From Tridacna crocea (Eukaryota > Mollusca > Bivalvia > Cardiida > Cardiidae): DNA of 64,000 nt. The first letter of the stretch is position 1. Each line of letters opens with the position of its first letter. The position numbers were made by a program, and so were the translations under genes. The stretch lies in the NCBI GenBank assembly GCA_943736015.1, contig OX031065.1, positions 51,872,992-51,936,991 of the forward strand. The letters are read 5' to 3'. A model generated the notes under the pieces. The model had not been told where the DNA came from. It was given only the letters and a program-made list of their open reading frames with translations, and did not search any database. Shown here piece by piece: positions 929 to 64,000 of the stretch.

Positions 929-1152
929 TTAACCCATTACCACACAATCCCTACTTTTGACGCCCCTAAGAAAGAAGCCCTTTGAAAACACTATGGGAAA
1001 AGGAGAAAATGCTGGTAACCAGCATTTTCTCCTTTTCCCAAAGTGTTTTCTACCCTTCCCAGAACAAATTTCTATTTTTTAGTCACCTTTATTTTGTCGT
1101 CTGTAAATGCTTTCAATTTGGACCAGTCTTTTCTCGTGTGGTAAAGATTTAA
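929..1152 (-). mobile_element. Family A TTAA palindromic MITE (reference copy)
   Basis: Bounded by TTAA at 929-932 and 1149-1152. Terminal inverted bases are TTAACCCATTACCA and TGGTAAAGATTTAA. The core is a near-perfect dyad whose arms read GGAGAAAATGCTGGT and its complement, meeting at the odd base of GGTAACC with no loop. The right arm contains GTCGTCTGTAAATGC and a GGACCAGTC motif. No coding capacity. TTAA target with CCC-starting ends is the hallmark of piggyBac-type elements, so it is probably a non-autonomous derivative. Confidence 0.9.
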
Positions 1153-1408
1153 TTTTCATAATATATAAATGTAAATTCATAATACAATCATGACTTGCTA
1201 GGTTTCATTCCATCGCAGAGACGCATGGTGCCCCCTTATATGCCAGCGAATAGCTCATTTAGAGAAGGCTTGCTGAATGTGTCTCAAATTATAGATTTTG
1301 TCCATAAAATGTAAGAGAACATGATATGAAAATGGGCCAAAAATGGTTACAAGCATTTTTTGTTCCATTTTCAGCAATGATTTGATCTGCTTTCTTCATC
1401 GGTTTCGT

Positions 1409-1644
1409 TTAACCTTTAACCACACAATGAGGACTTTTTACGACCCTGAGGTAGAGGCCTTTTGAAAACTTTGTGGGAAAAGGAGAAAATGCTGGTAACC
1501 AGCATTTTCTCCTCTTCCCACAGAGCTTTTTTTTAACTCTATGAAAAAAAAAAAAGTGCATCATTTCAGCATATGTGAAATTATGGCCTCCAAATGCTTT
1601 CGATTTGGATAGGTCTAAAATTCTGCTGTATGGTTAAGGGTTAA
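1409..1644 (-). mobile_element. Family A MITE
   Basis: TTAA-bounded. The core is intact to the centre but the right side of the dyad is disturbed by a T-run and a poly-A insertion (1523-1556). Confidence 0.85.
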
Positions 1645-1780
1645 AACACAATAATGTTTTGTAAAGTTTATTAAACCTACATGTAAATAGATTATCAATG
1701 TATCATAGAATAAAGACCAAGATGAGACTGTAGGAGTGAATTGCAAGATGATATTTTTTGTTGTCTCCTACACGAGATCC

Positions 1781-1980
1781 GGGTCCGTATTCACCAACAA
1801 TTCTTGAAAACATTCTCAGTCATATTCTCCAAGATTTTCTGAAATTGAAAGTAACACAGCTTCTGATTGGCTAAATCAAATAGTTTAACCAATCAGAAAT
1901 CATGTTACTTTCAAACATAGAAAATTCTGGAGAATGACACCGAGAACGTTCTTAAGAATGGTTGGTGATTATGGACCCTG
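1781..1980. mobile_element. Family C palindromic MITE
   Basis: The entire 200 bases form an imperfect inverted repeat from GGGTCCGTATTCACCAAC to ATGGACCC. The centre is two facing CCAAT-type boxes, GATTGGCTAAA and TTTAACCAATC. Confidence 0.85.
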
Positions 1981-2434
1981 ATGTCATGCGCCATTTTCAT
2001 TTTTGCTAGAGAAGCATGATGATGGTGGATAAACGAGCAATGTGTCCTTTTGGCATGTTATTTCCATATATGTTTATTTGACAAATAATGGATGTACATG
2101 TATATTTACGTAATATTGATTTTTTCCCATATATTTCAGCGCGTAATACCGACCCCCTCCCAAATTACTGATAAGCGTAATAACTATTTCAAGAGGGTAT
2201 GAAATACGAGGATTTATGCCTGATGCATTATTGGTCAAGTTAGAGTTAGCTCCCTTATAACAGAGGCCGTGTAAATTGTACCCTTCCTGCTGCCACATCC
2301 GTGATCACCAAATCTAACATTGCAAAACGCTAGTCCGTGAGTATTCAAGGGCTATGTAGATCAAAGTCGGATTGCTCATAAGGTCTAATCTGAAACTGTA
2401 TCTACACTGTCCAACACAACGAGATCTTGATCGG

Positions 2435-2482
2435 TAAAATCTTCTCCTTTTCCCAAGATGTTTTCTTCCCCATCAAAGACAG
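2435..2482. mobile_element. Family A half-core fragment
   Basis: CTTCTCCTTTTCCCAAGATG and the start of an arm. Confidence 0.4.
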
Positions 2483-2519
2483 ACGTGATCACCTACAAAG
2501 TCCGTTGTTTTTGACATAT

Positions 2520-2680
2520 ATATGTATTTTTGCTGTTGAGCTGATGGTTGAGCTGGGATGTCGAGCTGGCTCAAAAGACATTGATCAAAACATATGTATA
2601 AGTATTTTTACTATTGAGCCGGCGGTTGAGCTTGAATGTCGAGCTGGCTGTGAGGTCTTGGATTTACAGAGTCCGATGGT
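2520..2680 (+). repeat. Imperfect tandem duplication, about 78 bp unit
   Basis: TGTTGAGCTGATGGTTGAGC and TATTGAGCCGGCGGTTGAGC mark the two units, each ending GTCGAGCTGGCT. Confidence 0.6.
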
Positions 2681-3104
2681 TTTATAAACCTGTGAAAATG
2701 TCTCAAATTAACCAGAAAGAATGTAAGCAATGTTCGATGGTAGTCATTGCGACAGGATTAACGTCTTTCACTTCCAGATGAAAATTTGTTATTATTTCAT
2801 GCTTTCCGGTAGGATATCGAGAAATAGCAGTGAAAATATTTTTGCGATCTTTTACCACCGGTGAAAATACCGATTTTCACGTTCTTGTTGCCTAGGTAAA
2901 TTGCGCGTGCCTCACAACCAGATGGGAAATATGACGTCATATACCTTACATTTCTCGCGCTTGACGTAATATTGTAATGCGTTGCTATGCGGGAGGGGTA
3001 TGCCATGGGGAATAACGGAAAAGAACTGTACTGGATTTTGATAAAGCTTCTCCCAGAAAGGGTTAAAAGCGTGAAATAAATAGAATATTTGTTTTGTTTT
3101 TTCA

Positions 3105-3263
3105 GTGAAAGATCGAAATATATTTCATCGAGTGAACACCATCGGTAATATTTTCACTCGTGGCTGAATGAACACCATCGGTAATATTTTCACTCGTGGC
3201 TGCGCCACTCGTGAAAATATTACCGATGGTGTTCACTCGATGAAATATATTTCGATCTTTCAC
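3105..3263. repeat. Inverted repeat G with a duplicated arm segment
   Basis: GTGAAAGATCGAAATATATT to its exact complement, arms about 60 bases. The left arm has a second copy of AACACCATCGGTAATATTTT (3170-3189), so it is longer than the right. Confidence 0.85.
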
Positions 3264-3764
3264 CGAAAAAAAAAATATCCTGTATATATTTAGCAACAAG
3301 TACCTGGTAAAGTATTGTGCCTAGTATTGATTGAAGAGAAATCGGAAATGCATGGATAGATGCACAGATCGTCGTAACAAAACTGAATTATTGTTGTAAA
3401 AGTTGTTAGAATACGAGAAAAAAAAAATCCCCAAGAATTTACTTGACACTTTGAAAAATAATTCGCAACGGCAAAATGCCGAAATTTAACTCGTAATAAT
3501 GAATAGCGGGGAGAAAAAATGCTCGTATTTGATTGACATAAGTAACTATTTTCACGTTGTTAAGTCACATTCCTAAGGGTTAAAAATTGTGTAGATGTCT
3601 AACCTACAATTTCCCGGTAATTTTTTATTGCGCGAGAAAACATCGACAGCGGAAACGGCTAATCTTCATGTCGTGAAAGCCAATCTTTTACTGGGAAATA
3701 CTTAGGTATAGTGTTTTATAAGCTATTGAAAATTAGCGGTCCACGAACAGGCTATTTAAGTTTG

Positions 3765-3994: not shown

Positions 3995-4002
3995 ATTGTT
4001 AT

Positions 4003-4215
4003 TTTGATACTTATCCATCTAAATTAGTAGAGTGAAATGTTTTAGCCAATAGTAAAACCCCACTTTTTGCTATTTCAACGTTATCTGGGAATGAACCATA
4101 TTGCCTTATTTTAATAGTGTAGATCGAAGATCAGACAGCACGTTCTGTGTAGTCTGATCTTGATCTTCGCTGTCAGATATAGGTCTCTGGGTTGCACTTA
4201 GCAGCTAAGGGTTAA
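4003..4215 (-). mobile_element. Family B MITE
   Basis: Starts next to the preceding A copy and ends at TTAA 4212-4215 with GCACTTAGCAGCTAAGGG. Confidence 0.8.
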
Positions 4216-4320
4216 TTGTAGTACAACGTTATGCATTTAGTAACTGTTATTGATAATCAAAGGACTGAAAGTCCTGAAAAGCGGATTTGTTGAACAGTTT
4301 CAAGCTACGATTTGATGTAA

Positions 4321-5352: not shown

Positions 5353-5579
5353 TTAACTCTTTACCACACAATCCCGAGTTAAGAACTGTGTGAAAGATGC
5401 CCTTTGAAAACATTGTGGGAAATGGAGAATATGCTGGTAACCAGCATTTTCTCCTTTTCCCACAATGTTTTCTACCCTATTGAAGACATATTCCATCATT
5501 TGAGCGACATTAGATTTGTCGTCTGCAAATGCTTTCAGTTTGGACATGTCCAAAATTTCATTGTGTGGCAAAGAGTTAA
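5353..5579 (-). mobile_element. Family A MITE
   Basis: Both TTAA ends present; core GCTGGTAACCAGC intact. Confidence 0.9.
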
Positions 5580-8237: not shown

Positions 8238-8465
8238 TTAACACTTTCCAAATCGACAAATTTTGGACCCTTCCAAACCAAAAGAGTTTGCAGATGACAA
8301 TTTTAGATTTGGAGAAAATGGCAGAAAGTTCTCAAAAAGGGTTGAAAACACTGTGGGAAAAGGAGAAATTGCTCGTTACGAGCAATTTCTCCTTTTCCCA
8401 CAATGTTTTCAAAAGACTTTAACTGCAGACACGTTAAAACCGGGGCTTGTTTGGGAAAGGGTTAA
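8238..8465 (+). mobile_element. Family A MITE, GCTCGTTACGAGC core subtype
   Basis: TTAA-bounded. Core centre is GCTCGTTACGAGC instead of GCTGGTTACCAGC. The left arm has GTTTGCAGATGACAA and the right arm CAGACACGTTAAAACCG, both typical of this subtype. Confidence 0.9.
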
Positions 8466-10726: not shown

Positions 10727-10956
10727 TTAACCCATTACCACACAATCCCGACTTTTAACGACCCTGAGAAAGAAGTCTTTTGAAAACACTGTGGGAAAAG
10801 GAGAAAATGCTGGTAACCAGCATTTTCTCCTTTTCCCACAGTGTTTTCTACCCTTCCCAAACCAAATTTTAATTTTTCGGTCATCTTTATGTTGTTGTCT
10901 GCAAATACTTTCAATTTGGACCAATAAAAAATTTTCTTGTGTGGTAAAGAGTTTAA
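10727..10956 (-). mobile_element. Family A MITE abutting a family B copy
   Basis: Its left TTAA directly follows the right TTAA of the family B copy (TTAATTAA at 10723-10730). Core perfect. Confidence 0.9.
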
Positions 10957-11547: not shown

Positions 11548-12309
11548 GTGTTTCGTCTACAAATTCATCAAACATGAACAAACTTTAATTTTTGTCGACA
11601 AGAAAAGTTGAAAAAAAAAACCAAACCGGTGGAATCGAATTATTTCATGACTGATAAAGAATCTATCCAATCTTATCTGTTTATGAGGAGCCATCGCGTT
11701 TTTGGCAAATTGAATAATTTTACACCGCCGAAATTGCTTATCAGCACGACTCTAACGGTTACGAAGAGCAGGTAAAGTTGTGAGTCTCTGTGAGCTTTAC
11801 TGCTGAAACAACTCCGACTGTGGAATTTTTGAGACGGTGAAAAGATTGGCATTGCAGAGATACCTCGCTTATAACCGTCAGCGTTCTTCACGAGGTTCGC
11901 AAACACGTTTTGAAATAGCTGTAACATTATTGGTTGGATTTAACGAGCGCATTCTAATCCGGGTACCTTTAGTTTTTTCGTCGTTCAAAGATTGGAGTGA
12001 ATTCATTGAGAAGAACCTCTCATTCATTCAAAATCAAGCTGCTCTGACTTCCAGTTGGATATATCGTTACCTGCGAATAACCACAAACGGAGTTTAAAAT
12101 TTTAGAGTTTGCAAATTTCTTTACGTTCGGCAGATATTTTCTATCGGTGAGATGAAGCTCTCCCACGGTAATACCCTGACGGTATTTGAATGATTTTGAA
12201 AAATAGAGAATTTATCACGAGATTTGTGACTGAGTGATGTCACAAAGATTGTCATTTTAACTAAAAAAAAATTATTGAGAAAGATAACAGAAAATTAATC
12301 GAGAATAAA
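11548..12309. other. 5' flank of the putative exon, repeat-poor
   Basis: About 760 bases without a member of the palindromic families. Promoter and 5' UTR of the 12310 exon should lie here, but I see no convincing TATA box. Short frames at 11673-12097 on both strands overlap each other and look like chance. Confidence 0.35.
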
Positions 12310-12604
12310 ATGGCTTCAAATTCCAACTCAGACGAAGAACGCGAACTTATAGAGGAAGAGCAGGCGGAGGAAAGAGACAAATTTCCCGATATAATAAACG
12401 GACATGACGAGGAGGAACGGGACACCCTGCCCGATCTTTACGAAAATTCTGACGCCGGGGATTTGTCGGAAGCACGGTCCGAGGGTCGGTCCGTCACCTC
12501 GGAAGAACGCTCTATCCGTTCCATGACGCCAGATACCGAACTCGAAGAAATAGAAGAAGTGTTGCGGGAACAGCCGAAACCGAAAGTCATTGTTTTCGAC
12601 CTCG
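12310..12604 (+). CDS. Probable first coding exon of an unidentified protein (acidic N-terminus)
   Basis: An open frame starts at an ATG in a fair context (ATAAAATGG) with an in-frame stop shortly upstream, and runs 98 codons plus one base to CTCG, followed at once by GTAAGT, a near-perfect splice donor. The segment is clearly richer in G+C than the DNA around it and is free of the window's repeats. Residues 1-90 are strongly acidic, full of Glu, Asp and Ser, with no predicted membrane segment, so probably disordered. The exon ends with KPKVIVFDL, hydrophobic residues then Asp. If the split codon is completed as Asp or Gly this would read VFDLD or VFDLG, as in motif I of HAD-superfamily phosphatases, for example the magnesium-dependent phosphatase 1 type. 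That assignment is a guess from nine residues. I found no second exon; the intron may leave the window. Exon call moderate, function weak. Confidence 0.6.
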
Positions 12605-12610
12605 GTAAGT
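12605..12610 (+). other. Splice donor of the 12310 exon
   Basis: GTAAGT directly follows the acidic open frame. It matches the eukaryotic 5' splice-site consensus and leaves a phase-1 codon (first base G). Confidence 0.6.
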
Positions 12611-12863
12611 AAAATAGAGTGGCTTTCTTTTCCCGAAATGAAAAAATTAAGTCCTGTGTGCTTGTTTCTTTAGTATTTAAAATTTATTATTTGTCCAAGA
12701 TAATCCATCTGTTTGGCAGACTCGAAAAAAAAATAATACGGCAACAGCTCCTTTTCCTCCTATATTTACGTATCTTATCAAATGAACTGATATTTTAAGT
12801 CAATATAATTAATAACTGATCAAATGCTATCGTTTATCTATTTGAAGGTCAAATACATAATTT

Positions 12864-13129
12864 GGCCTGCAACACGCGGAAAGGGACATTCGGACATTTG
12901 CATAAAGTGTAGTTCCGGATAAGCATGCGCAGTACGCGCAGGCTAATCCGAAACTACACTTTCCGTTTTTTCTTATGCAATTTTCTGTTTTGCGCAAGTC
13001 TACTGTTGCACAAAATGTAATGTAGTCGTAAAGTGCCGTCTCGGATTAGCCTGCGCGGACTGCGCAGGCTGATCCGAGACGACACTTTACGCAAAGTATC
13101 CAAATGAACCTTTTCGCGTGTTGCAAGCC
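12864..13129. mobile_element. Family D double-hairpin MITE
   Basis: Ends GGCCTGCAACACGCG and CGCGTGTTGCAAGCC. Two strong G+C-rich hairpins around GCGCAGTACGCGC and CGCGGACTGCG lie left and right of a TCTGTTTTGCGCAAG centre. The whole element is also inversely symmetrical. Confidence 0.85.
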
Positions 13130-13310: not shown

Positions 13311-13513
13311 CAGGGCCCATATTCACCAACCATTCTTAAGAACGTTCTTTGACTTATTCTCCAGAATCTTCTACATTTGTAAGTAACACACTTTCTGACT
13401 GGCTAAACCATTCGGTTTAGCCAATCAGAAATTGTGTTACTTACAAATTTAGAAAACATTGGAAAATACAGACTAAGAATATTCTCAAGAATTGTTGGTG
13501 AATACGGGCCCTG
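13311..13513. mobile_element. Family C MITE inside a repeat N copy
   Basis: CAGGGCCCATATTCACC to GGGCCCTG. The N sequence before it (AAAAGTGTCAACC) continues after it (CTGGTCAGACTGCGC). Confidence 0.85.
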
Positions 13514-14143: not shown

Positions 14144-14371
14144 TTAACTCATTACCAAACGACAATATTTTAGACTTCTCCAAATTGAAAGCATTTGCAG
14201 ACGACAAAATAAAAGTGACAGAAAATTTGAATTCGTTTTGTGAAGGGTAGAAAACATTGTGGGAAAGGGAGAAAATGCTGGTTACCAGCATTTTCTCCTT
14301 TTCCCACAATGTTTTCTAAAGGCTTCTTTCTCAGGGGCGTCAAAAGAAGAGTTTGTGTGGTAATGGGTTAA
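14144..14371 (+). mobile_element. Family A MITE
   Basis: Full length, TTAA at both ends, perfect core. Confidence 0.9.
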
Positions 14372-14988: not shown

Positions 14989-15216
14989 ATAAACCTTTCC
15001 TAAACAAGCCCTTGTTTTTACGTGTCTGCAGTACAAGTCTTTTGAAAACACTGTGCGAAAAGGAGAAATTGCTCGTAACGAGCAATTTCTCCTTTTCCCA
15101 CAGTGTTTTCTACACATTTGGAAGACTTTCTGCCATTTCTATCAAATTTGAAATTGTCGTCTGCAAACTCTTTGAGTTTGGAAGAGTCTAAAATTTGTCG
15201 TTTGGGAAAGGGTTAA
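14989..15216 (-). mobile_element. Family A MITE, GCTCGTAACGAGC core subtype
   Basis: Left end ATAA, right end TTAA. Carries the CAAGCCCTTGTTTTTACG left arm of the subtype. Confidence 0.88.
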
Positions 15217-15744: not shown

Positions 15745-16006
15745 TGATCTGCAACATGCTGAAAGCAGCTTTTGGATATTTGCGTAAAGTGTCGTGTCGG
15801 ATCAGTCTGCACAGCCCGCCTAGGCTGATCCGAGACAGCAATTTACGTCAACATTGGATTTTGTGCTACAGTAGACGTGCGTGAAACAGTAAATCACACA
15901 CGATCGGAAATTGTCGTCTCGGATCAGCCTGCGCGAACAGCGCAGGCTGATCCGAGACGACACTTTAGGTAAATGTCTGAATGCCTCTTTCGGCGTGTTG
16001 CAGGCC
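15745..16006. mobile_element. Family D MITE
   Basis: Right hairpin nearly perfect (CTCGGATCAGCCTGCGC); left one eroded. Confidence 0.82.
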
Positions 16007-21124: not shown

Positions 21125-21322
21125 GTAATCCCTAGGCTGCTAAGCGCGACTCACTGACCTTTTGCGGACAGTGTAGATCAAGATCAGACTGCACAGAATG
21201 TGCAGTCTGATCTTGGATCTACACTGTCCGATAAGAAGATACTGTTCTCCAAATAAAACAAAGGTTGAATTGGCATTATTTGGAGTTTTACTTTTAGTTT
21301 GAAAGTGTCATTTGATTTTTAA
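21125..21322 (+). mobile_element. Family B MITE
   Basis: GTAATCCCTAGGCTGCTAAG start, well-preserved core; the end meets TTAA 21319 of the A copy. Confidence 0.8.
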
Positions 21323-21621: not shown

Positions 21622-21835
21622 TTAACTGTTACACTGCTAAGCGCGACCCATTGATCTTTTGCAGACAGTGTAGATCAACATCAGACTGCACAGAACATGC
21701 AGTCTGATCTTGGATCTGTACTGTCTGATAAGAAGGTACAATTCCGCAAAACATAACTTTAAAATAGTAACATTAATTATTTTTACTATCGAATTGAAAA
21801 TATCATTTTCAGTTATTTAGTTTCCGTAGGGTTAT
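21622..21835 (+). mobile_element. Family B MITE abutting the 44-bp satellite
   Basis: TTAA at 21622, core intact, right end CGTAGGGTTAT where the tandem array starts. Confidence 0.8.
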
Positions 21836-21836
21836 C

Positions 21837-22130
21837 ATTCGTAAATTCGACAAAGCCTGATGCTTGTACGAGGATATTGCATTTGTAAATTCGACAAAGC
21901 CTGATGCTTGTACGAGTATATTGCATTTGTAAATTCGACAAAGCCTGATGCTTGTACGAGGATATTGCATTTGTAAATTCGACAAAGCCTGATGCTTGTA
22001 CGAGTATATTGCATTTGTAAATTCGACGGAGCCTGATGCTTGTACGAGTATATTGCATTTGTAAATTCGACAATGCTTGATGCTTGTACGAGTATATTGC
22101 ATTTGTAAATTCGACAATGCTTGAAAGCTT
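21837..22130 (+). repeat. 44-bp tandem satellite, about 6.6 copies
   Basis: GTAAATTCGAC starts at 21841, 21885, 21929, 21973, 22017, 22061 and 22105, an exact 44-base period. Variation is small (AAAGCC or AATGCT; GAGGA or GAGTA). Because 44 is not a multiple of three, the minus-strand frames across it show a 44-residue peptide period; this is not evidence of a protein. Confidence 0.92.
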
Positions 22131-22469
22131 GTGTATTACACTGCCGTCATCCATCGCCTTTGAAATACACGGGATGTAAAGTGGTCTCATGTTTTGCCCT
22201 ACTTTTAAACATATTGCCATAACAAGTTTGCTTTGGATTTGACAAAGAACATTAAAATGCTATGGTAACGTTGAGACTGTGAAATAGGGTAGAAAAGGAA
22301 GCTTCATAATTTCAGACCGATTTGGTAGATATCACTACACACACACTCGAAAAAAAAGCCTGACTTTGAGCGCAAAAAAGTCTGCTTATTTGGCATGGAC
22401 CCCCAAAGCAACTGACCTGAGGTTTCCCTGAAGACCATAGAAAGGGAGAATGGGTACCCTAATATACTA

Positions 22470-22730
22470 TGCACCATGCAAAAAAGGGGCATTCGGATAT
22501 TTGCGTAAAATGCTGTCTCGGATCAGCCTGTGCAGTCCGCACACGCTAATCCGAGACAGCACTTTACGTGTGCATTAAATTTTATGCTACAGTGGACTTG
22601 CCCGCAAACGGAAAATCACATAAAAATCGGAAAGTGTCGTTTCGGATCAGCCTGCGCAAATTGCGCAGGCTGATCCGATACGACACTTTACGCAAATGTC
22701 CAAATGCCCCTTTTTCGCGTGTTACAGGCC
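22470..22730. mobile_element. Family D MITE
   Basis: Both hairpins present; left terminus lost, right CGCGTGTTACAGGCC. Confidence 0.82.
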
Positions 22731-23328: not shown

Positions 23329-23514
23329 TGGGTCCGTATTCACAAACCATTCTTAAGAAGAGTCTTTGTCTTACTCTTCAAGATTTTCCAACTGTGAAAG
23401 TAACAGAACTTCTGATTGGCTAAACCGAATGGTTTAGCCAATCAGAAGTTCTCTTACTTTCACAATGACAAAATTCTGAAGAGTAAGACTAAGAATGTTG
23501 GTATATACGGACCA
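23329..23514. mobile_element. Family C MITE
   Basis: Central arms CTTCTGATTGGCTAAACCG and complement are perfect; the right outer arm has a short deletion. Confidence 0.85.
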
Positions 23515-28205: not shown

Positions 28206-28530
28206 GAAGTTCTGTCTCGGACTTTCTGTTTCAGGCGTTCTGTCTCGTACCGGTCACAGGCGTTCTGTCTCGGGCTTCTTGGTCCGTATTCACCAACCAT
28301 TCTTAAGAACGCTCTTTGCCTCATCCTCCAGAATGTCCTCCATTTGTAAGCAGCACAACTTCTGATTGGCTAAACCGAATAGTTTAGCCAATCAGAAGTT
28401 GTGTTACTTACAAATTTAGAAAACATTGGAGAATAAGACTAAGAACATTCTCAAGAATGGTTAGTGAATACGGGCCCCTGTCTCAGGCGTTCTGTCTCGG
28501 ACTTCCTGTCTCAGGCGTTCTGTCTTGGAC
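28206..28530 (-). repeat. Short tandem repeats beside the Tc1 fragment, split by a family C element
   Basis: Variants of CAGGCGTTCTGTCTCGG recur at 28230-28275 and again at 28483-28530. The array is interrupted by the family C copy at 28279-28479, and the flanks join smoothly when that copy is removed. It may have grown from the decayed coding end of the Tc1 gene. Confidence 0.6.
28279..28479. mobile_element. Family C MITE inside the Tc1-adjacent repeats
   Basis: Complete copy; central GGCTAAACCG arms perfect; right end CGGGCCC. Confidence 0.88.
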
Positions 28531-31811: not shown

Positions 31812-32073
31812 GGTTTGCAACATGCGAAAAGGGGACATTTGGACCTTTGCGTAAAGTGTCGTCTCGGATTAGCCTGCGCTGTCCGCGCAGGCTAATCCGT
31901 GACGGCACTTTACGTCGACAGTTTTTTTCCAGTAGACTTGTGCAAAACAGAAAATTAGAAAAAGAAAAGCCGGAAAAGTGTCGTCTCGGATTAACCTGTG
32001 CGGACTGCGCAGGCTAATCCGAGACCACAATTTACGCAAATGTCCGAATGTCGCATTTTGCATGTTACAGGCC
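31812..32073. mobile_element. Family D MITE
   Basis: Complete with both ends and both hairpins. Confidence 0.85.
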
Positions 32074-32384: not shown

Positions 32385-32612
32385 TTAACCCATTACCAGA
32401 TGACAATATTTTAGGCTGGTCCAAATTGAAAGCATTTGCAGACGACAATATAAAAGTGACTGAAAATTTGAAATTTGGTTTGTGAAGGTAGAAAACATTG
32501 TGGGAAAATGAGAAAATGCTGGTTACAAGCATTTCCTCCTTTTTCCACAATGTTTTCCAAAGGCTTATTTCTCAGGGTTGTCAAAAGTAGGGATTGTGTG
32601 GTAATGGGTTAA
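32385..32612 (+). mobile_element. Family A MITE, first of a TTAA-sharing pair
   Basis: Full length. The right TTAA at 32609-32612 is also the left TTAA of the next copy. Confidence 0.9.
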
Positions 32613-32836
32613 CTTTTTACTGAACAATTATTATATTTAACGATCTGGAAGACAGCTGAAAAAAAAAACATTGTGCGAAAGGAGAAAAAGGTGAAAATTC
32701 ACCATTTTTTCCTATTCCTACAATTTTTTCTAATTACCCATGAAAAGAAATTATGTTTTGTGTCACATTTATTTTATCGTGTGCGAATGCTTTGAGTTTG
32801 GACACGTTCTAAATTAGGTCTTTTGGTGAAGGATAA
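32609..32836 (-). mobile_element. Family A-like MITE with a third core type
   Basis: Keeps the outer arms (CATTGTGCGAAAGGAG, GTGCGAATGCTTTGAG), but the centre is GGTGAAAATTCACC. Right end ATAA. Confidence 0.75.
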
Positions 32837-36001: not shown

Positions 36002-36231
36002 TTAACCCTTTACTCCATGGATACTCATTTTGACGTATCAACAACAGGCAGCTTTTGAAAACATTGTGGGAAAAGGAGAAATTGCTCGTAACGAGCAATT
36101 TCTCCTTTACCCACAATGCTTTCCACTCAGTCAGATATTTATATCCTCATTTGTCCATATTTTTGACATCATATCTTTATTTGCTGCTGAAATGGAAGAG
36201 CCTCAAATTGGCATATCAGGTAAAAGTTTAA
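36002..36231 (-). mobile_element. Family A MITE, divergent-arm subtype
   Basis: TTAA-bounded with the GCTCGTAACGAGC core, but the arms differ from other copies: CCATGGATACTCATTTTGACG on the left and GCTGCTGAAATGGAAGAG on the right. The copy at 60787-61016 is the same subtype inverted. Confidence 0.88.
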
Positions 36232-36684: not shown

Positions 36685-36899
36685 TTAACTCTTAGGATGC
36701 TTAGCGCCATTCACTGACCTTTTGCGGACAGTGTAGATCAAAGATCAGACTGCACAGAACGTGCAGTCTGATCTTTTATCTACACTGTCCGAGAGGGAAA
36801 TAGTTTTTCCTCCCAAAATATCTTTTGAAATAGCAAAAGTTGCGTTTTTTTTCTATCGCCTGAAAGGTTTCAATTTCCAGATTTAGAAGGATTAGTTAA
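36685..36899 (+). mobile_element. Family B MITE
   Basis: Full length with both TTAA ends. Confidence 0.87.
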
Positions 36900-37963: not shown

Positions 37964-38192
37964 TTAACCTTTTCCCAAACGACAAATTTTTGGACAAGAC
38001 CAAATTGAAAGCATTTCCGGACGACATTTCAACTCTTGCTGGAAAGATTATTTCTGTCTATGATGAGGTAGAAAACATTGTGGGAAAAGGAGAAAATGCT
38101 GGTTACCAGCATTTTCTCCTTTTCCCACAATGTTTTCAAAAGGCTACTGTTCCAGACCCGTAAAAACCAGGGAATGTTTAGGAAAGGGCTAA
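37964..38192 (+). mobile_element. Family A MITE
   Basis: CTTTTCCCAAACGACAAA terminal variant, perfect core, right end CTAA. Confidence 0.9.
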
Positions 38193-38591: not shown

Positions 38592-38819
38592 TTAACCCTT
38601 TCCCGAACGGCAAATTTTGGACGAGACCAAATTGAAAGCATTTTGCCGGTGACAAATTAACAGTTGCTAAAAAGATGATTTTTCTACATGACAGGGTAGA
38701 AAACATTGTGGGAAACGGAGATAATGCCGGTTACCAGCATTTTCTCCTTTTCCAAAATGTTTTCGAAAGGCTTCTATTCCTGACCCGTAAAAACCAGGGA
38801 TTGTTTGGGAAAGGGTTAA
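38592..38819 (+). mobile_element. Family A MITE, first of a shared pair
   Basis: Close relative of the copy at 37964 (GACCCGTAAAAACCAGGG right arm). Core has small changes (GAGATAATGCCGG). Confidence 0.9.
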
Positions 38820-39043
38820 CCCTTTCCCAAATGACAAATTTTAGACTGTCCCAAAGTCAAAGTGTTTGCAGATGACAATTTTCAATTTGATGAGAATGGC
38901 AGAAAGTTTTCTGATAGGCTAGAAAACACTGTGGGAAATGGAGAAATTGCTCGTTAAGAGCAATTTCTCCTTTTCCCACAGTGTTTTATAAAGACTTGTA
39001 CCGCAGACACGTAAAAACCAGGGCTTGTTTGGGAAAGATTTGA
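38816..39043 (+). mobile_element. Family A MITE, GCTCGTT core subtype, sharing TTAA
   Basis: Shares TTAA 38816-38819 with the previous copy, which has the other core type. Right end decayed near 39040. Confidence 0.9.
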
Positions 39044-39093: not shown

Positions 39094-39222
39094 TTAACCC
39101 TTTAGGATGCTACGCGCGGATTACTGACCTTTAGCGGACAGTGTAGATCAAGATCAGACCGCACAGAACGTGCAGTCTGATCTTGGATCTACACTGCCAG
39201 AGAAGAAGATATTATTCTTTAA
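39094..39222 (+). mobile_element. Family B MITE, long arm missing
   Basis: Runs from TTAACCCTTTAGGATGC to just past the core, then hits the TTAA of an A copy. Confidence 0.8.
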
Positions 39223-39453
39223 CCCTTTACCAAACAATTCCTGGTGTTCACGACCCTGAGATAGAAGTTTTTTGAAAACATTATCATAATGGGAAAAGTA
39301 GAAAATGTTGATAACAGGCATTTTCTCTTCTTTCCAAGATGTCTTCTGCTCTGCTGGAAACAAATTTCAATTTTTGAATTACATATAATTTGTCGTCTGC
39401 GGGTGCTTTCAATTTGGACCAGTCTGAAATTTTGTCGTTTGGCAAAGGGTTAA
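39219..39453 (-). mobile_element. Family A MITE sharing TTAA with family B
   Basis: TTAA 39219-39222 is also the end of the short B copy to the left. Core diverged (GTTGATAACAGGC). Confidence 0.88.
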
Positions 39454-39677: not shown

Positions 39678-39938
39678 GGAATGCAACACGCAAAAAGTTG
39701 CATTCGGACATTTGCGTAAAGTGTCGTCCCGGATTAGCCTGCGCAGTCATCGCAGGCTAATCCGAGACGACACTTTACGACTACATTTGATTTTGTGCTA
39801 CAGTAGACTTGCGTAAAACAGAAAATCACATAAAATCCAAAAGTGTCGTTTCGGATTAGCCTGTGCGGACTGCACACGCTGATCCGAGACGACACTTTAC
39901 GCAAATGTCCGAATGACCCTTTTCGCGTGTTGCAAGCC
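39678..39938. mobile_element. Family D MITE
   Basis: Complete; GATGACTGCG-type loop in the left hairpin. Confidence 0.85.
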
Positions 39939-40674: not shown

Positions 40675-40965
40675 ATGTTGAGCTCAGGTAGAACAGTCGG
40701 TAGGGTACTCGACTCGAGACCAGGGCCCGTATTCACCATCCGTTCTTGGGAAAATTCTCCGTCCTAATCTCTAAGATTTTCTGAATTTGTAAGTAACATA
40801 ACTTCTGATTGGCTAAACCGAATGGTTTAGCCAATCAGAAGTTGTGTTACTTTCAAATATAGACAATTCTGGACGATAATACAAAGAACGTTCTAAGGAA
40901 TGAGGTGAATACAAGCGCTGGAGGTCATTGATCGGAACCCCAGCTCGCCCAATTTCTTTCCGAGG
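40675..40965 (+). mobile_element. tRNA-derived SINE fragment split by family C
   Basis: AGTCGGTAGGGTACTCGACTC before the insert and GATCGGAACCCCAGCTCGCC after it resemble D-arm/anticodon and T-arm sequence of a tRNA-like SINE head. Confidence 0.6.
40721..40920. mobile_element. Family C MITE inside a tRNA-derived SINE
   Basis: CAGGGCCCGTATTCACC to CAAGCGCTG. The tRNA-like sequence on either side (40675-40720 and 40918-40965) reads through when it is removed. Confidence 0.85.
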
Positions 40966-41433: not shown

Positions 41434-41800
41434 TTTACCCTTTGACCATGGACAATTTTAGACTTGGACAGATTAAAAATAGCTACAGGCGAACAATGCA
41501 TTTTATCTCAAAAGGTGGGTCCTGGGTCTGTATTCACCAGCCGTTCTTGAGAATATTCTTAGTCTTATTCTCCAAGATTTTCTAAATTTGTAAGTAACAT
41601 AACTTCTGATTGGGTTAACCGAATGGTTTAGCCAATCAGAAGTTGTGTTACCTTCAAATATAGAAAATTCTGGAGAATAAGACAAAGAACGTTCTTAAGA
41701 ATGGTTGGTGAATACGGGGCCTGGTTTTGAAATAGTAGAAAACATTCTGGGAGAAGAAAATTATGCTGGTTACAAGCATTTTCTCCTTTTCCCTCTTCAT
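41434..41800 (+). mobile_element. Family A copy split by a family C insertion
   Basis: The left arm runs to about 41515, family C occupies 41522-41723, and the core resumes at GTAGAAAACATTCTGG. The right arm after the core is lost. Confidence 0.7.
41522..41723. mobile_element. Family C MITE inside a family A copy
   Basis: Complete, GTCTGTATTCACCAGCC to GGTGAATACGGGGCCTG. Confidence 0.85.
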
Positions 41801-43461: not shown

Positions 43462-43582
43462 TTAAGACTTTCCCATACAATCCCACCCTGAAGAAGGAAG
43501 TCTATGGAACCAATGTTTGAAAAGGGGAAAATGCTGGTATTCAGCATTTACTCTTCTTCCAGGACATTTTCTAACCCTTTAA
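43462..43582 (-). mobile_element. Family A truncated copy, unit 4
   Basis: Left arm plus a core with GCTGGTATTCAGC; the far arm is absent and the next TTAA starts unit 5. Confidence 0.75.
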
Positions 43583-43788
43583 CCCTTTGCCAAAAGACAA
43601 AATTTTAGATTTGTCCAAATTGAAAGCATTTGCAGACGACAAAATAAAAGTGACTGAATTTTTTTTTTTTTTTTTTTTAGTGAAGGATAGAAAACGTTGT
43701 GGGAAAAGGAGAAGATGCTGGTTACCAGCATTTTCTCCTTTTCCCACAAAGTTTCAAAAGGCTTCTTTTTCAGGGGTTAATGGGTTAA
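43579..43788 (+). mobile_element. Family A MITE, unit 5, poly-T expansion
   Basis: A run of about 20 T replaces part of the left arm (43660-43679). The right arm is shortened before the shared TTAA. Confidence 0.88.
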
Positions 43789-44014
43789 CCCTTTACCAAA
43801 CGACAAAATTTTAGACTTGTCCAAACTTAAAACACCTGCAGACAAGAAAATAAACGTAACTCAAAAATTGAAATTTGTTTCCAACAGGATAGAAAACATT
43901 GTAGGAAAAGGAGAAGATGCTGGTTACCAGCATTTTCTCCTTTTCCCGCAATGATTTCATAAGGATTCTATCTCAGGGTTGTAACAACCAGGGATTGTTT
44001 GGTAAAGGGGTTAA
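43785..44014 (+). mobile_element. Family A MITE, unit 6
   Basis: Full length with both TTAA ends; CCAGGGATTGTTTGG right arm variant. Confidence 0.9.
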
Positions 44015-44277: not shown

Positions 44278-44558
44278 TTAAAACCCTTTACCAAACAAGC
44301 CCTTGTTTTTACGTGTCTGCAGTACAAGTCTTTTGAAAACACTGTGGGAAAAGGAGAAATTGTGTCTGCAGTACAAGTCTTTTGAAAACACTGTGGGAAA
44401 AGGAGAAATTGCTCGTAACGAGCAATTTCTCCCTTTTCCCACAGTGTTTTCTACCCATTTGGAGAACTTTCTGTCATTTTTTATCAAATTTGAAATTGTC
44501 GTCTGCAAACTCTTTGAGTTTGGAAGAGTCGAAAATTTGTCGTTTGGGAAAGGATTAA
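44278..44558 (-). mobile_element. Family A MITE, GCTCGTA subtype, with 50-base internal duplication
   Basis: The segment starting GTGTCTGCAGTACAAG and running into GGAGAAATT is present twice in direct order (44314-44362 and 44363-44411), which lengthens this copy. Confidence 0.88.
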
Positions 44559-44589: not shown

Positions 44590-44799
44590 CCCTTATTTTG
44601 CAAAATAACTAAAATTTTAAATTATCAGTTCGATATTAATAACTTAAATATTTGGTATTTCAAAGTTATGGTTTGGGTATAATGTCTCCTTATCGGACAG
44701 TGTAGATCCAAGATCAGACTGCACGTTCTGTGCAGTCTGATCTTGATCTACACTGTCCGCAAAAGGTCAGCGAGTCGCGCTTAGCAGCCAAACGGTTAA
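44586..44799 (-). mobile_element. Family B TTAA palindromic MITE (reference copy)
   Basis: TTAA at both ends, about 214 bases, outer bases TTAACCCTTATTTTGC and GCAGCCAAACGGTTAA. The off-centre core is a near-perfect dyad: TGTAGATCCAAGATCAGACTG, a few bases, then its complement. The long arm is AT-rich; the short arm reads GCAAAAGGTCAGCGAGTCGC. Non-coding. Ends and target match family A while the internal sequence does not. Minus means the GCTTAGCAGCC arm is on the right. Confidence 0.88.
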
Positions 44800-46727: not shown

Positions 46728-47156
46728 TCCTTTCACAAAAGGATCTAGTGTTTTTAACTCTCTTGAAAAAGGCTTTCAGATCATGTCGGAAAAGTAGATA
46801 GTTCAGCGTCCGTATTCACCAACCATTCTTAAGAATATTCTTAGTCTTATTTTTAAAGATTCTCCGGATGTGAAAGTAATACAACTTCTAACTGGCTAAA
46901 CCAAGTGGTTTAGCCACTTAGAAGTTGTGTTACTTTCACACCTTGAAAAATCTGTAGAATAAGACTTAGAACATTTTTAAGAATGGTTGTTGAATACGGA
47001 CCCACTGGTTGTTAGCATTTCTCAATCGATTTTCCACAATGATTTCGATCCTTTCAAATTATAACCTGTTAGATCTTTTATAGACCATGTATAACTTACC
47101 TGCAGATGTTTTTAATATGGACAAGTATCAAATTATGTCATAGACTAAAGGGTTAA
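46724..47156 (-). mobile_element. Family A copy split by a family C insertion
   Basis: Left arm 46724-46806, family C 46807-47004, then the core half GTTAGCATTTCTC and right arm to TTAA 47153. Shares its left TTAA. Confidence 0.75.
46807..47004. mobile_element. Family C MITE inside a family A copy
   Basis: Complete. The centre carries paired changes in both arms (CTAACTGGCTAAACCA and TGGTTTAGCCACTTAG), so the CCAAT boxes are lost. Confidence 0.85.
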
Positions 47157-49154: not shown

Positions 49155-49280
49155 TTAGTTCTTTACCAAACGACAAAATGTTAGATTTGTCCATATTGAA
49201 AGCATTTGCAGACAACAAACTAAGATCAGCTAAAATTTTGGGACTTGTGTCATTGAGAGAGTAGAGGAAATAGTGTTTTA
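49155..49280 (+). mobile_element. Family A left-arm fragment
   Basis: CTTTACCAAACGACAAAATG to a truncated end, immediately before a complete copy in the same direction. Confidence 0.7.
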
Positions 49281-49506
49281 CTCTTTACCACACGAGAAAA
49301 TTTTACACTGGTCCAAATTGTAAGCATTTGCAGACGACAAAATAAAGGTGACTCGAACATAGAAATTTGTTTTGGTAAGGGTAGAAAACACTGTGGGAAA
49401 AGGAGAAAATGCTGGTTACCAGCATTTTCTCCTTTTCCCACAAGTGTTTTCAAAAGGCTTCTTTCTCAGGGGCGTCAAAAGTAGGGATTGTGTGGTAATG
49501 GGTTAA
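49277..49506 (+). mobile_element. Family A MITE
   Basis: Full length, perfect core with one extra base in the right arm (CACAAGTGTTTTC). Confidence 0.9.
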
Positions 49507-49560
49507 AGGGATGAAATTCTTGTAACTAGCATTTCACCATTTCCCACGACGTTGTGTAAA
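49503..49560. mobile_element. Family A remnant
   Basis: From the shared TTAA, a weak core (GTAACTAGCATTTCACC) then TTTCCCACGAC. Confidence 0.4.
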
Positions 49561-49620
49561 AACGTTTACTACACAATGCTCGCAAAAATAGGGGAACCGT
49601 TGGTGTTAGGCGGACATGTT

Positions 49621-51882: not shown

Positions 51883-52084
51883 CTGTGTCTGTATTCACCA
51901 ACCATTCTTAGGAACATTCTTGGTCTTATTCTAGAAGATTTCCTGACAGTGAAAGTTACAGGACTTCTGATTGGCCAAACCATTTGGTTTAGCCAATCAG
52001 AAGTCCTTTTACTTTCACAGTGACAAAATTCTGAAGAATAAGACTAAGAATGTTCTAATGAATGGTTGGTGAATACAGACCCTG
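51883..52084. mobile_element. Family C MITE
   Basis: Complete; arms very similar to the 23329 copy. Confidence 0.87.
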
Positions 52085-53630: not shown

Positions 53631-53854
53631 TTAACCCTTTCCCAAACAAGCCCTTGTTTTTACGTGTCTGCAGTATAAGTCTTTTGAAAATACTGTGGGA
53701 AAAGGAGAAATTGCTCGTAACGAGCAATTTCTCCTTTTCCCATAGTGTTTTCTACCCATTTGGAGAACTTTCTGCCATTTTTGTTAAATTTGAAATTGTC
53801 GTCTGCAAACTCTTTCAGTTTCGAAGAGTCTAAAATTTGTCGTTTGGAAAAGGG
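53631..53854 (-). mobile_element. Family A MITE, GCTCGTA subtype
   Basis: Left TTAA at 53631. The right TTAA is missing and the copy runs directly into the next at GGAAAAGGGACAAA. Confidence 0.88.
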
Positions 53855-55164: not shown

Positions 55165-55363
55165 CAGGGTCCATAATCACCATCTATTCTTAAGACCATT
55201 ATTTGTCTTACTCTTCAAGATTGTCTGGCTGTGAAAGTAACAGAGCTTCTAAGTGGCTAAACCATTCGGTTTAGCCAATTAGAAGTTCTGTTACTTTCAC
55301 ATTAACTAAATTCTGAGGAATAAGACTGAGAATGTTCTTAAGAATTGTTGGTGATTACGGACC
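55165..55363. mobile_element. Family C MITE, first of a tandem pair
   Basis: Complete copy ending GATTACGGACC. Confidence 0.85.
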
Positions 55364-58286: not shown

Positions 58287-58522
58287 TTAACCTATTACTA
58301 CACAATCCCTACTTTTGACGCCCCCACTCCAAGAAAGAAGCCTTTTGAAAATACTGTGGGAAAAAGGAGAAAATGCTGGTAACCAGCATTTTCTCCTTTT
58401 GCCCACAATGTTTTCTACCCAACTGAAAACAAATTTCAATTTTTGAGTTTCCTTTATTTTGTCGTCTGCAAGTGCTTTGAATTTGGACCAGTCTAAAATT
58501 TTGTCGTGTGGTAAAGAGTTAA
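58287..58522 (-). mobile_element. Family A MITE, unit 1 of a five-unit array
   Basis: Full length; CCCCCACTCC expansion in the left arm. Shares TTAA 58519. Confidence 0.9.
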
Positions 58523-58749
58523 CTCGTTACCAAACGACAAAATCTAAGGTTTGTCTAAATTGAAAGCATTTGCAGACGACAAAATAAGAAATAACTGAAA
58601 ATTTAAAATTTGTTTTGTGAAGGGTAGAAAACCTTGTGGTAAAGGAGAAAATGCTGGTTACTAGCATTTTCTCCTCTTCCCGAAATACTTTTCTAAAGGC
58701 TTCTTTCTCGGGGTTCGTCAAAAGTAGGGGTTGTGTGGTGATTGGTTAT
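58519..58749 (+). mobile_element. Family A MITE, unit 2
   Basis: Complete; right end TTAT, used by the next unit. Confidence 0.9.
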
Positions 58750-58958
58750 CAACAAATGTTTGGACTTGTCCAATTCAAAGCATCTGCAGATTGTTCATCG
58801 AAAGTATAATAAAGATGAATCAAATTTTTTGAAAGATATAAAACACTGGTGTGAAAAAATAGGATGCATGTTACAAGAATTTTCTATTTCCCTCAATATT
58901 TTTTGAAACAGTCTCTTTCAGCCTCGTTAAAACTCGGAGTTGTGTGGTAAAGGGTTAA
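58746..58958 (+). mobile_element. Family A MITE, unit 3, most decayed
   Basis: Left arm shortened; core reads GATGCATGTTACAAG. Confidence 0.75.
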
Positions 58959-59151
58959 CTCTTCACCCAGCGACAATATTTTGGAAATTGAAAACATTTG
59001 TGGGCGAGAGTATAAATGTGACTCAAACATTGACATTTGTTTGGAAAGATAGAAAAAGTAATGTAAAAGAAGATAATGCTGATTACCAGCAATTTCTCCT
59101 TTTCCCACAGTGTTTTAAAAGGTCTTTTCCTTTGGGTCAAGACTGAGTTAA
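58955..59151 (+). mobile_element. Family A MITE, unit 4
   Basis: GCTGATTACCAGC core; right arm shortened after TTTCCTTTGGG. Confidence 0.82.
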
Positions 59152-60572: not shown

Positions 60573-60790
60573 TTAACCCTTAGGCTGTTATGAACGACTT
60601 AAGGGCCATTTTCGGATGGTGTCGATCGAGATCAGACTGCACAGAATGTGCAGTCTGATCTCTGATTTACACCGTCCAACCCTCCCCCCTCCCCCAACCC
60701 ACCTTCCAATCCCACTCCCAAATTACTTAAGAATAGCAATAGGCTAGTTTTTATCATTAACTTTATAGTCCCATTTATTTCGCAGGTTAA
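60573..60790 (+). mobile_element. Family B MITE
   Basis: Core perfect around CACAGAATGTG; C-rich expansion at 60678-60712; shares TTAA with the next A copy. Confidence 0.85.
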
Positions 60791-61016
60791 CCCTTTACCT
60801 GTTATGCCAATTTTAGACTCTTCCATTTTAGCAGCAAATGAAGATACGATATCAAAAATATGGACAAATGAGGATACAAATATCTGATTGTGTGAAAAAC
60901 ATTGTGGGAAAAGGAGAAATTGCTCGTTACGAGCAATTTCTCCTTTTCCCACAATGTTTTCAAAAGCTGTCTGTTGTTGGTGTGTCAAAATGAGTATCTA
61001 TGGAGTAAAGAGTTAA
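60787..61016 (+). mobile_element. Family A MITE, divergent-arm subtype
   Basis: Inverted relative to 36002-36231 and alike across both arms (GCAGCAAATGAAGATACG, GAGTATCTATGGAG). Shares its left TTAA with a family B copy. Confidence 0.9.
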
Positions 61017-62092: not shown

Positions 62093-62294
62093 ACTGTTAA
62101 ATAAGTAGATGAAACTCTTGAGCTGATGGTGAAAATCCAAATGCTACCATTTCAAAGTTATTTCGTCGAGTAAAGTACCTCCTTATCAGACAGAGTACAT
62201 CAAAGATCAGACTGCACATTCTGTACAGTCTGATCTTGATCTACACTGTCTGCAAAAGGTCCTTAAATCTTTTCCCAGCAGCCTCAGGATCAAG
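62089..62294 (-). mobile_element. Family B MITE
   Basis: Shares its left TTAA with an A copy; right end decayed (GCAGCCTCAGGATCAA). Confidence 0.8.
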
Positions 62295-62402
62295 TCGAAC
62301 ACTTACGCTAACAGAACAGAATAGAACAACATTTTATTTGACCTGTTTACCTGACAGTACATTGTCATATTCACATCAAAAGTCACATAAATTCCAAGGT
62401 CA

Positions 62403-62475
62403 CCCTCTCTCGTTCTCTTTATTCTCTCTCTCTCTGTCTCTCTCTGTCTCTCTCTCTCTCTCTCTCTTTCTGTTC
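62403..62475 (+). repeat. TCTC microsatellite
   Basis: Runs of TCTC with TCTG interruptions. Confidence 0.85.
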
Positions 62476-63166
62476 TGTTCTCTTCTGCTTACACCTAACC
62501 TCGCTCGAAACCAAAACCCTTACCTGTCAAAGCTCTATACTACAATATTCGTTTGACTCTAACTGGACAGAAAGTCTACCCCCAGTAACAGGTCTTTCCG
62601 ACTTACCTCTTTCATAGCAAGAGAGGCCAAGATTACGAAAGATATATCTAAGTGGCTGACATGCTTATTGTTCCGACATTGGAGTTTTTATTCGACCTTT
62701 GATATTTTTATCGAATAAACAAAGCAGAGGAATTAGGCCCTCCTGCAAAAAAAACCTGACTTGATAATTTCTTGCCAGACACAGTAATTGTTCCAACTTA
62801 TATAATTTCGTCAAGCAAATCTTTGTCAAGAAATAAAATTAATCTGTTGTTTGCATCACACGTTTATTTTACTCCACTTAGCCAGTATTCCTGCGTATCA
62901 TTGTGAACGATTTGCGGAAAGCCTATTGACTAAGAGTAGCCGTCATGTCGGTGCAGTCCGATCTTTGTTACATTCCTAAATACCCTACAAATAGCTTTAG
63001 TTTTACGATGCCCATTCAATGTAGTATAAGGTTTCCTTGTAAACTGTAAAATGCTTGCTCTAGAACTTAAAATGTTTATTCAGCAAGTTTCAATATATCC
63101 CTGTAAAATATCGACAATTAAAGTGTATTTCCAGGGCTGGAGACTGCAGCTAAACTTGAATCATCT
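62476..63166. other. Non-repeat DNA before the tRNA-like repeat pair
   Basis: Nothing recognised; GGTGCAGTCCGATC at 62950 may be a family B or N relic. Confidence 0.35.
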
Positions 63167-63360
63167 TGTTACGGGAGACCACTCCTTCCTGCATGGCTTC
63201 GTCCCGATTTAAATACAATACCTGACAACTGTGTCAGGGAGATATCCCTTTGGCTCAATGGTTAAGGTATTGGCACTTTGCACGGGAGTTCTGGGGTTTG
63301 AATCTCGCCCGGTCCCTTATTTCTGCCATTCATTTGTTTCTTTGTTACGGACTTTGTTGG
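63167..63360 (+). mobile_element. Direct repeat 1 with tRNA-like promoter
   Basis: TGTTACGGGAGACCACT start. Contains pol III-like box A (TGGCTCAATGG, about 63252) and box B (GGTTTGAATCT, about 63296) at tRNA spacing, followed by CGGTCCC. A tRNA-derived SINE or an LTR-like unit. Confidence 0.65.
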
Positions 63361-63481
63361 TAAGATGGGAGCTCGTCTGTGATTGGCCAGTGAGCCATTA
63401 ATCCCATTTATTGTCTTAAAACGGACTTTCTGCCTAATACGGCTTTGAGTCATCAATAAATGATGACTTTAAGAGGGGGTG
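63361..63481 (+). other. Short spacer between the tRNA-like direct repeats
   Basis: About 120 non-coding bases ending in a purine run AAGAGGGGGTG directly before the second repeat, like a polypurine tract before a 3' LTR. Confidence 0.5.
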
Positions 63482-63672
63482 TGTTACGGGAGACCACTAT
63501 ATCCTGCATAGCTTCGTCCCAATTTAAATACAATACCTGACTGCTGCGTCAGGGAGATATCTCTTTGGCTCACTGGTTAAGGTATTGGCCTTTCGTCAGG
63601 GAGTTCTTGGATTCGAATCTGCACGGTCCCTTACTTTTGCTCTTCATTGGTTTCTTTGTTACGGATTTTGTT
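63482..63672 (+). mobile_element. Direct repeat 2 with tRNA-like promoter
   Basis: Matches the first through GTTACGGA. Box A TGGCTCACTGG, box B GATTCGAATCT, the latter nearer consensus than in the first copy. Confidence 0.65.
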
Positions 63673-63719
63673 CGGAAGAATCTTTTATTCAGGTATTGAT
63701 GTCGTAACGTTACAGGAAT

Positions 63720-63800
63720 ACATTTGAAACCATTGTGACAAAAGGACAAATGGGTCGTTACGAGGCTTGCTTTCCTTTGTTTTTTTCTAAAGTGATCTGC
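63720..63800. mobile_element. Family A core remnant
   Basis: CATTGTGACAAAAGGAC and GGTCGTTACGAGGC suggest a decayed GCTCGTTAC-type core. Confidence 0.4.
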
Positions 63801-63844
63801 CGCAAAACAAAAGAGTCGGCTGCCAGGGATATTGTGTTCATTCA

Positions 63845-64000
63845 TTAACCTTTCAGCAAACAATCCCTGGTTTTTACGATCCAAAGAAGAAGTCCTATGA
63901 AAACATGGAAAAAGGAGAAAATGCAGGTTACCAGCATTTTCTCCTTTTCCCACAATTTTTTTCTTCTCTTCCATAAGGCCAAGCTTCAATTTTTGAGCCA
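63845..64000 (-). mobile_element. Family A MITE cut by the window end
   Basis: Left TTAA and core visible; the far arm continues beyond the window. Confidence 0.85.

Follow-up and report, generated by a model that had tools for sequence, protein, structure and literature searches.

The window analysed here is a 64,000-bp stretch of the genome of the bivalve Tridacna crocea (contig OX031065.1) that is densely populated by a short repeat, designated family A. It is a real family built of several old lineages, and its members are miniature inverted-repeat transposable elements (MITEs) of an ordinary kind: non-autonomous, piggyBac-type and located at TTAA sites. The family carries an inner palindromic core, in which the lineages differ by changes made on both arms at once, whereas the changes private to single copies, in the 35 copies that could be placed, are one-sided.

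Number and structure of family A copies

A profile seeded with the copy at 5353-5579 and iterated to the fifth search gave 153 hits, which were reduced to 83 non-overlapping pieces; many of the hits removed were the core matching itself on the opposite strand. The pieces are distributed over both strands (929..63999) and occupy 14,607 of the 64,000 bases, or 22.8% of the window. An extra piece (521-714) lies upstream of position 929, where the family had been taken to begin. Near full length, with a model start at 1-4 and an end at 222-227, are 39 of the 83 pieces (18 on the plus strand and 21 on the minus strand). These figures agree with the original prediction of about 75 copies or pieces by hand count and of a length near 228 bp, the model being 227 bp long without the first T and the last A of the flanking TTAAs.

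The 227 columns of the consensus comprise imperfect inverted ends of the CC type (TTAACCCTTTACCACACAAT... on the left and ...GGTAAAGAGTTAA on the right), a left flank (columns 1-51), the palindromic core (52-124), a variable stretch (125-165) and a right block (166-227), which is better conserved than the variable stretch. The small size, the non-coding sequence, the many copies of one length and the inverted ends are all characteristic of MITEs. For 42 long copies the distance to the closest other copy has a median of 12.3% (6.4-32.5%), and the median for all pairs is 25.8%. Nearest relatives at such a distance indicate that there was no recent burst, contrary to the recent spread that had been proposed.

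Target site, ends and superfamily

Of the copies with both ends (n=33), TTAA is found on both sides in 21, on one side in 11 and on neither side in 1, so that 32 of 33 are flanked by TTAA on at least one side, as predicted. The CCC-starting ends predicted for the family correspond to the CC-type ends of the consensus. The piggyBac end motif is described as CC[C/T]T with short inverted repeats (PMC2872659). The left end of the consensus, CCCTTTACC, matches this motif, and the right end, read inward as CTCTTTACC, departs from it by one base, at a column with 47% agreement where several copies have CCC; the ends can be summarised as TTAACCCTTTACCA-type. Elements of the Kolobok superfamily also use TTAA as a target, but their termini are described as 5'-RR (PMC9587614), and this assignment was rejected because the ends here are 5'-CC.

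Repeats interrupted by family A copies agree with the ends and the target in pointing to a piggyBac-type MITE. The flanks of 39 copies were joined and searched against the window. The copy at 39219-39453 (plus strand), which has TTAAs, sits in a dispersed repeat unrelated to family A: 8 other copies of this repeat match its joined flanks across the junction, near which some of the alignments have small gaps. None of these 8 reads TTAA at the junction (CCAA, GCAA and others occur), so the repeat copy that received the insertion had probably changed to TTAA beforehand. The same search with the copy at 49277-49506 (minus strand) matched its joined flanks to 15 family A places through the junction; this copy therefore interrupts an older member of the family, of which the pieces 49160-49265 and 49505-49595 are left. 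Three more joined-flank hits are abutting copies (58519-58749).

The palindromic core

The heptamer GGTTACC occurs 36 times in the window, compared with 4.05 times (sd 2.07, largest 11) in 100 shuffles. The consensus pairs with itself at 68 of 73 columns about column 88, and at 10-32 columns about the 11 other centres tried. The core defined in this way is 73 bp long and includes 33 consecutive consensus pairs (columns 55-87) around one odd centre base; the run extends to 35 pairs in the copies of lineage G. A dyad without a loop had been predicted, and it is present, with GGTTACC and its one odd base at the centre, but it is restricted to columns 52-124 and lies off-centre, at column 88, while the centre of the element is at column 114. 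A wholly palindromic (fold-back) MITE was rejected, as no pairing occurs in the rest of the 227 columns. A full copy with perfect core arms is located at 37965..38190 (minus strand); its core (38068..38140, minus strand) contains the arms 38071-38103 and 38105-38137, which are 100% complementary with 1 nt between them.

Most copies are now imperfect. In the 60 of 83 rows that have at least 25 scorable pairs, the arms mismatch each other in 299 of 1987 cells (15%) and only 4 rows are free of mismatches. Departures from the consensus are 191 in the left arm and 195 in the right arm. When the right-arm letters were redealt among copies, 350.6 mismatches (sd 6.5) were obtained, and the arms are therefore more symmetric than expected by chance. 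Deletions at the core centre are found in 2-4 of about 71 copies, while several other places have 3-4 of about 69 and the maximum is 10 of 57 at column 208; without a hotspot at the centre, deletion there was rejected as a sign of palindrome instability.

The possibility that the core arose where two TTAA elements abutted (GGTTAACC with one base lost) was also considered and rejected, since no free-standing element with arm-like ends occurs in the window; GGTTAACC is absent from the 25 listed centre forms, which cover all or nearly all of the rows examined. Exact core patterns had no match in the sets of genome contigs and viral contigs searched.

Symmetric changes between lineages and private changes of copies

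The lineage analysis covered 35 of the 83 rows, 48 being dropped as fragments or unplaced, and distinguished the lineages F, G, E, D, C, B and O, with two copies in B and a mixed set in O. Their consensuses differ at the strict arm pairs 62/114 (T-A or C-G), 80/96 (A-T or T-A) and 85/91 (G-C or C-G), on both sides each time. Where the lineage B consensus departs on one side only (59/117 and 69/107), the difference was traced to one of its two copies. All four combinations of 62/114 with 80/96 and 85/91 exist (lineages F, C, B and the rest), which may reflect exchange between cores or repeated symmetric change. The C-G form of 62/114 is carried by a full lineage F copy (10728..10953, plus strand) with perfect 33-nt arms (10782-10814 and 10816-10848). 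The symmetric changes at 80/96 and 85/91 are seen in the lineage C copy at 14990..15215 (plus strand), other members of this lineage being 8239-8464, 38817-39041, 44365-44557 and 53632-53854. The lineage B copy at 36003..36229 (plus strand) has the core of lineage C except for the pair 62/114, between very different flanks.

The distribution of such changes was followed on a tree of 55 rows built from the flanks, which are short sequences for this purpose. On internal branches 48 arm changes were counted, of which 12 form 6 symmetric pairs, with 0 in six controls whose pairings were slid. On the tips there were 279 arm changes, of which 16 form 8 symmetric pairs, with 0-3 in slid pairings. The symmetric share thus differs between internal and tip branches (Fisher p = 1.4e-4). 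Among internal branches with at least 3 tips, the two that lead to at least 5 tips with support above 0.9 bear symmetric changes only, apart from T54A of lineage G, which converts a T-T mismatch into a pair and lengthens the arms to 35 pairs, as in the copy at 14145..14370 (minus strand). Less-supported internal branches also carry one-sided changes, and on a basal branch (support 0.775) a double change at 85/91 was not scored as symmetric by parsimony. In a separate alignment of the 31 of 83 rows with cores of exactly 73 bp (30 of them distinct), 24 cells are changed on both sides; shuffling gave 6.4 (sd 1.9) and slid versions 2-6.

A different picture was obtained for the private changes. 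Compared with their own lineages, the 35 placed copies have 34 private changes in the left arm and 45 in the right arm, 79 altogether; in 1182 cells there are 3 double changes (1.3 expected), none of them symmetric. Their tips on the flank tree carry 86 changes, again without a symmetric pair; all 8 symmetric tip pairs belong to rows dropped from the lineage set. The original prediction had raised a repair that restores symmetry and had proposed a comparison of arm-to-arm with copy-to-copy divergence. In this comparison symmetry is clearly kept between lineages and symmetric private changes are absent from the placed copies. Such a repair has left no trace in these, but may have acted in 20 unplaced copies, which have 8 symmetric pairs.

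Conservation of the core relative to the flanks

On the flank tree the core and the flanks accumulated similar numbers of changes per site at the tips (3.9 vs 4.4) and very different numbers on internal branches (0.67 vs 2.55). Because this tree came from the flanks themselves, each flank block was also held out of tree building (57 rows), and the contrast persisted (p = 3.7e-10, 5.1e-8 and 1.0e-4). Counts per non-CpG letter in 57 copies gave a similar result. Singletons are as frequent in the core (0.0146) as in the left flank (0.0127) and the right block (0.0149), with 0.0070 in the variable stretch, whereas shared variants stand at 0.081 in the core and are commoner in the left flank (0.205), the variable stretch (0.302) and the right block (0.139). 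The private rate within lineages is lower in the core as well (90/2539 vs 134/1707, 158/1428 and 175/2063 in the flanks), which is probably due to sub-lineages within those defined here, although a lower rate of mutation, or repair, in the core would have the same effect. The profile finds copies partly by means of the core, and conservation of the core among fragments is inflated to that extent.

Lineage B differs from the other six lineages at 5-9 of 73 core positions and at 23-24 of 51 positions in the left flank. Its flanks resemble the main consensus at the edge of chance (shuffles were as high in 13 of 1000 for the left and 1 of 1000 for the right), and are 88-89% identical between its two copies, the second of which is located at 60788..61015 (minus strand). 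Thus, lineage B has retained the core between flanks of near-chance similarity to the rest of the family.

Possible role of the core and alternative explanations

It is about an even chance, in our estimation, that the palindromic core is kept by selection on the source copies of this piggyBac-type MITE. A transposase supplied from elsewhere would move family A into TTAA sites, as may be inferred from the ends and the target, and the 73-bp core would act as a cis-acting mobility module. Mainly those copies that retain both the core sequence and its two-fold symmetry would become sources, while settled copies would decay. Symmetric pair changes in source lineages might have arisen through compensatory mutation, or when template switching copied one arm onto the other, and selection would then have acted on them. 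The core would most likely be a two-fold site for a dimeric protein, either the transposase or a host factor. Such a site fits because sequence and symmetry are both held in source copies: if only a hairpin were needed, the sequence could drift, and a plain recognition sequence needs no paired change, so that the two-fold site explains both. Binding of palindromes through paired cysteine-rich domains is described for the piggyBac and piggyBat transposases (PMC11707139). The way in which lineage-level changes differ from private ones suggests that a copy needs the palindrome to give rise to others, and not to persist in the genome. A broader and tentative idea, with a chance well short of even, is that TTAA MITEs possess in the inner palindrome a portable mobility module, which elements with near-unrelated ends have kept or passed to one another. 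Spread would require the module to be symmetric, and only symmetric pair changes would replace it. In that case one unrecognised requirement of piggyBac-type MITEs may lie behind the inner regions that are conserved in MITEs of corals and clams.

Several points weigh against selection on source copies. A stretch of 73 bp is long for the site of one dimer. The arms, considered as extra transposase sites, resemble the element ends weakly (of 2000 shuffles, 34 and 62 did equally well at two ends, and 455 and 1362 at the remaining two), and this candidate was rejected. No transposase was seen in the 30 of 56 open reading frames (ORFs) of the window that were scanned, none of which had a Pfam match; many of the other 26 overlap repeats. 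The lineages were picked by hand from a clustering of 58 rows, and the close lineages F and G differ at 3 of 73 positions in the core and at 1 of 51 in the left flank. In the alignment of 31 cores 6 pairs show a double change, and 32 of 500 shuffles had at least as many; with 24 double-changed cells, the symmetry signal therefore sits in few pairs borne by many copies. The 193 tip changes of the 20 unplaced, older copies include the 8 symmetric pairs, where six slid controls gave 0-3; these pairs fit arm-to-arm copying without selection, unless the tips represent unsampled lineages. Their tips are long, with a mean of almost 10 arm changes each, and may therefore hide lineage history. Symmetric pairs also occur in two other palindromic repeats of the window, and a general mutational process would explain all of them at once.

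Such a process might be polymerase template switching at a quasi-palindrome, by which one arm is copied onto the other with no function needed; as the whole explanation it seems doubtful, but it deserves serious attention. Template switching is a known process (PMC8794818, PMC8604942), and the symmetric changes in the hairpin and fold-back repeats of the window as well as the symmetric tip pairs of the unplaced copies are in line with it. In 4 of 61 copies the centre base A has become T, the outcome expected of spacer inversion, but at P = 0.077 centre base inversion was rejected. The absence of symmetric pairs from the 79 private changes and from the 86 tip changes of the placed copies argues against template switching, which also leaves unexplained why the core changes less between lineages despite having like singletons. 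It may be that template switching supplies the symmetric changes, with selection acting besides. If, on the other hand, a transposition or gap-repair step made the arms identical at each move, symmetry would be kept between lineages and absent from the private changes of settled copies, as is seen in those that were placed. Yet asymmetric variants at column 66 (copies 19226 and 21320) and at column 104 (14145 and 51040) are shared by pairs that are among the closest 1-3% by flank, as if inherited, which hints that symmetry is not reset at each move. This objection is weakened by the asymmetric doubletons that fall in the closest 5% of pairs, 2 of 23, which is near chance (8 of 74 for flank doubletons). 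We know of no model of piggyBac transposition in which one arm is copied onto the other, and resetting is considered improbable.

Another way to keep the cores alike without selection is conversion between copies, in which cores overwrite one another. The four combinations of 62/114 with 80/96 and 85/91 are what exchange, or repeated change, would give, but conversion should also remove singletons, and those of the core are as frequent as in the left flank and the right block; this explanation is quite improbable. Very improbable, finally, is conservation of the core by a host function of hairpin RNA, such as a small-RNA precursor. The RNA of 38051-38157 is predicted to fold very stably (-55.7 kcal/mol, z -10.9), and the human Made1 MITEs are reported to have given rise to hsa-mir-548 (PMC1784062). 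Against this, private changes in settled copies are not depressed, and no Rfam family was found in the window at gathering thresholds; ARAGORN found nothing in the window either.

Comparison with known elements

MITEs and piggyBac elements are numerous in bivalves (PMC10294476), and palindromic repeats have been described in a ciliate (PMC9942856). A close precedent, judged by its description, is the MITE-like 'consensus sequence 1' from the haemoglobin genes of the clam Lucina pectinata (PMC4732748), a 210-bp element with imperfect 30-bp terminal inverted repeats and a 77-bp self-complementary segment (96%), to which the inverted ends and the inner palindrome of family A, also about 75 bp, are alike. 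Several copies occur in introns and promoters, and its authors mention similar fragments in other molluscs. According to the available part of that account, target duplications were not identifiable, and it names no superfamily and makes no comparison of lineages. The CMITE families of the coral Acropora share with family A the TTAA duplications, the CCCTTT-type ends, the link to piggyBac-like elements and the arrangement in arrays (PMC2872659). They also have a 75-base internal region that is more conserved between families than the ends, a likeness to the core of family A that again holds by description, and the role of this region was left as an open question in the coral paper. The CMITEs differ in being about 100 bp long, and no palindrome is mentioned in the text of the description consulted. 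Their arrays were ascribed to replication slippage, while family A neighbours share a TTAA in either orientation.

The piggyBac and piggyBat transposons themselves use TTAA and have palindromic sites placed asymmetrically relative to their tips, where two cysteine-rich domains bind (PMC11707139). These palindromes are short, 19 bp in piggyBac, and imperfect in piggyBat, and the autonomous elements encode a transposase. Made1, related to hsa-mir-548, is likewise a MITE with a nearly perfect palindrome and a strong RNA hairpin, but is 80 bp long and derived from the mariner Hsmar1, with two 37-bp terminal repeats around 6 bp, so that the palindrome spans the element (PMC1784062). The inner palindrome and the conserved core thus have precedents; the contrast between lineage and private changes is the new part, resting on 35 placed copies from one window. 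No report of such a contrast in a MITE was found in a literature search, most subscription journals being outside its reach.

Neighbouring copies

Nineteen pairs of neighbouring copies lie within 14 bp of each other, and in 7 of the 19 a single TTAA serves two true ends, the orientation of the copies being opposite in 4 of these. Random placement of 70 insertions, a guessed number of true insertions, over the 415 TTAAs outside copies gives 10.0 such junctions (sd 2.8; 5-95% range 6-15). The chains of copies therefore need no special targeting, and homing of copies onto their own ends was rejected. Examples are a chain of four neighbouring copies (58288..59137), in which two junctions share one TTAA between true ends, and two copies in opposite orientation sharing one TTAA (32386..32832). 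The adjacent copies 43580-43775 and 43786-44009 have the same orientation and a common arm variant at column 97, and perhaps arose by local duplication.

Other repeats and features of the window

A fold-back repeat of about 198 bp, with ends GGGTCCGTATTCACCA, is represented by 15 pieces (1781-1978, 13313-13511, 23330-23513, 28281-28477, 40723-40916, 41524-41720, 46806-47003, 51887-52082, 55167-55363 and others). It is almost wholly palindromic with a short spacer and has symmetric variants at some pairs; in 13 of the 15 pieces, 24 of 32 double changes are symmetric, with 11.9 doubles expected.

A dispersed hairpin repeat (80-column model, 41 pieces, loop of about 5 nt) is found at 4114-4185, 21164-21238, 36715-36791, 44684-44760, 62179-62252 and elsewhere. 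Its subfamilies, based on 31 of the 41 pieces, differ by 10 symmetric stem pairs and 1 asymmetric one. Inside clusters 22 of 27 doubles are symmetric (5.9 doubles expected), which may reflect finer subfamilies or true arm-to-arm copying, and keeps a mutational explanation of symmetry alive. Compensatory-looking changes thus occur in three repeat families of the window and should not be read as a sign of RNA function without more evidence. One subfamily forms inverted pairs about 60 bp apart, giving larger units of about 205 bp (12891-13097, 15774-15978, 22494-22702, 31840-32046 and 39705-39911).

An open frame rich in acidic residues (12265-12612), with a possible likeness to a known phosphatase, may be an exon; it had no Pfam or PDB match. 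Repetitive, minisatellite-like open frames are located on the minus strand at 21809-22259. A single long hairpin (3094-3271), with 72-nt arms that are 94% complementary, lies beside a 36-bp direct duplication and is present in one copy in the window.

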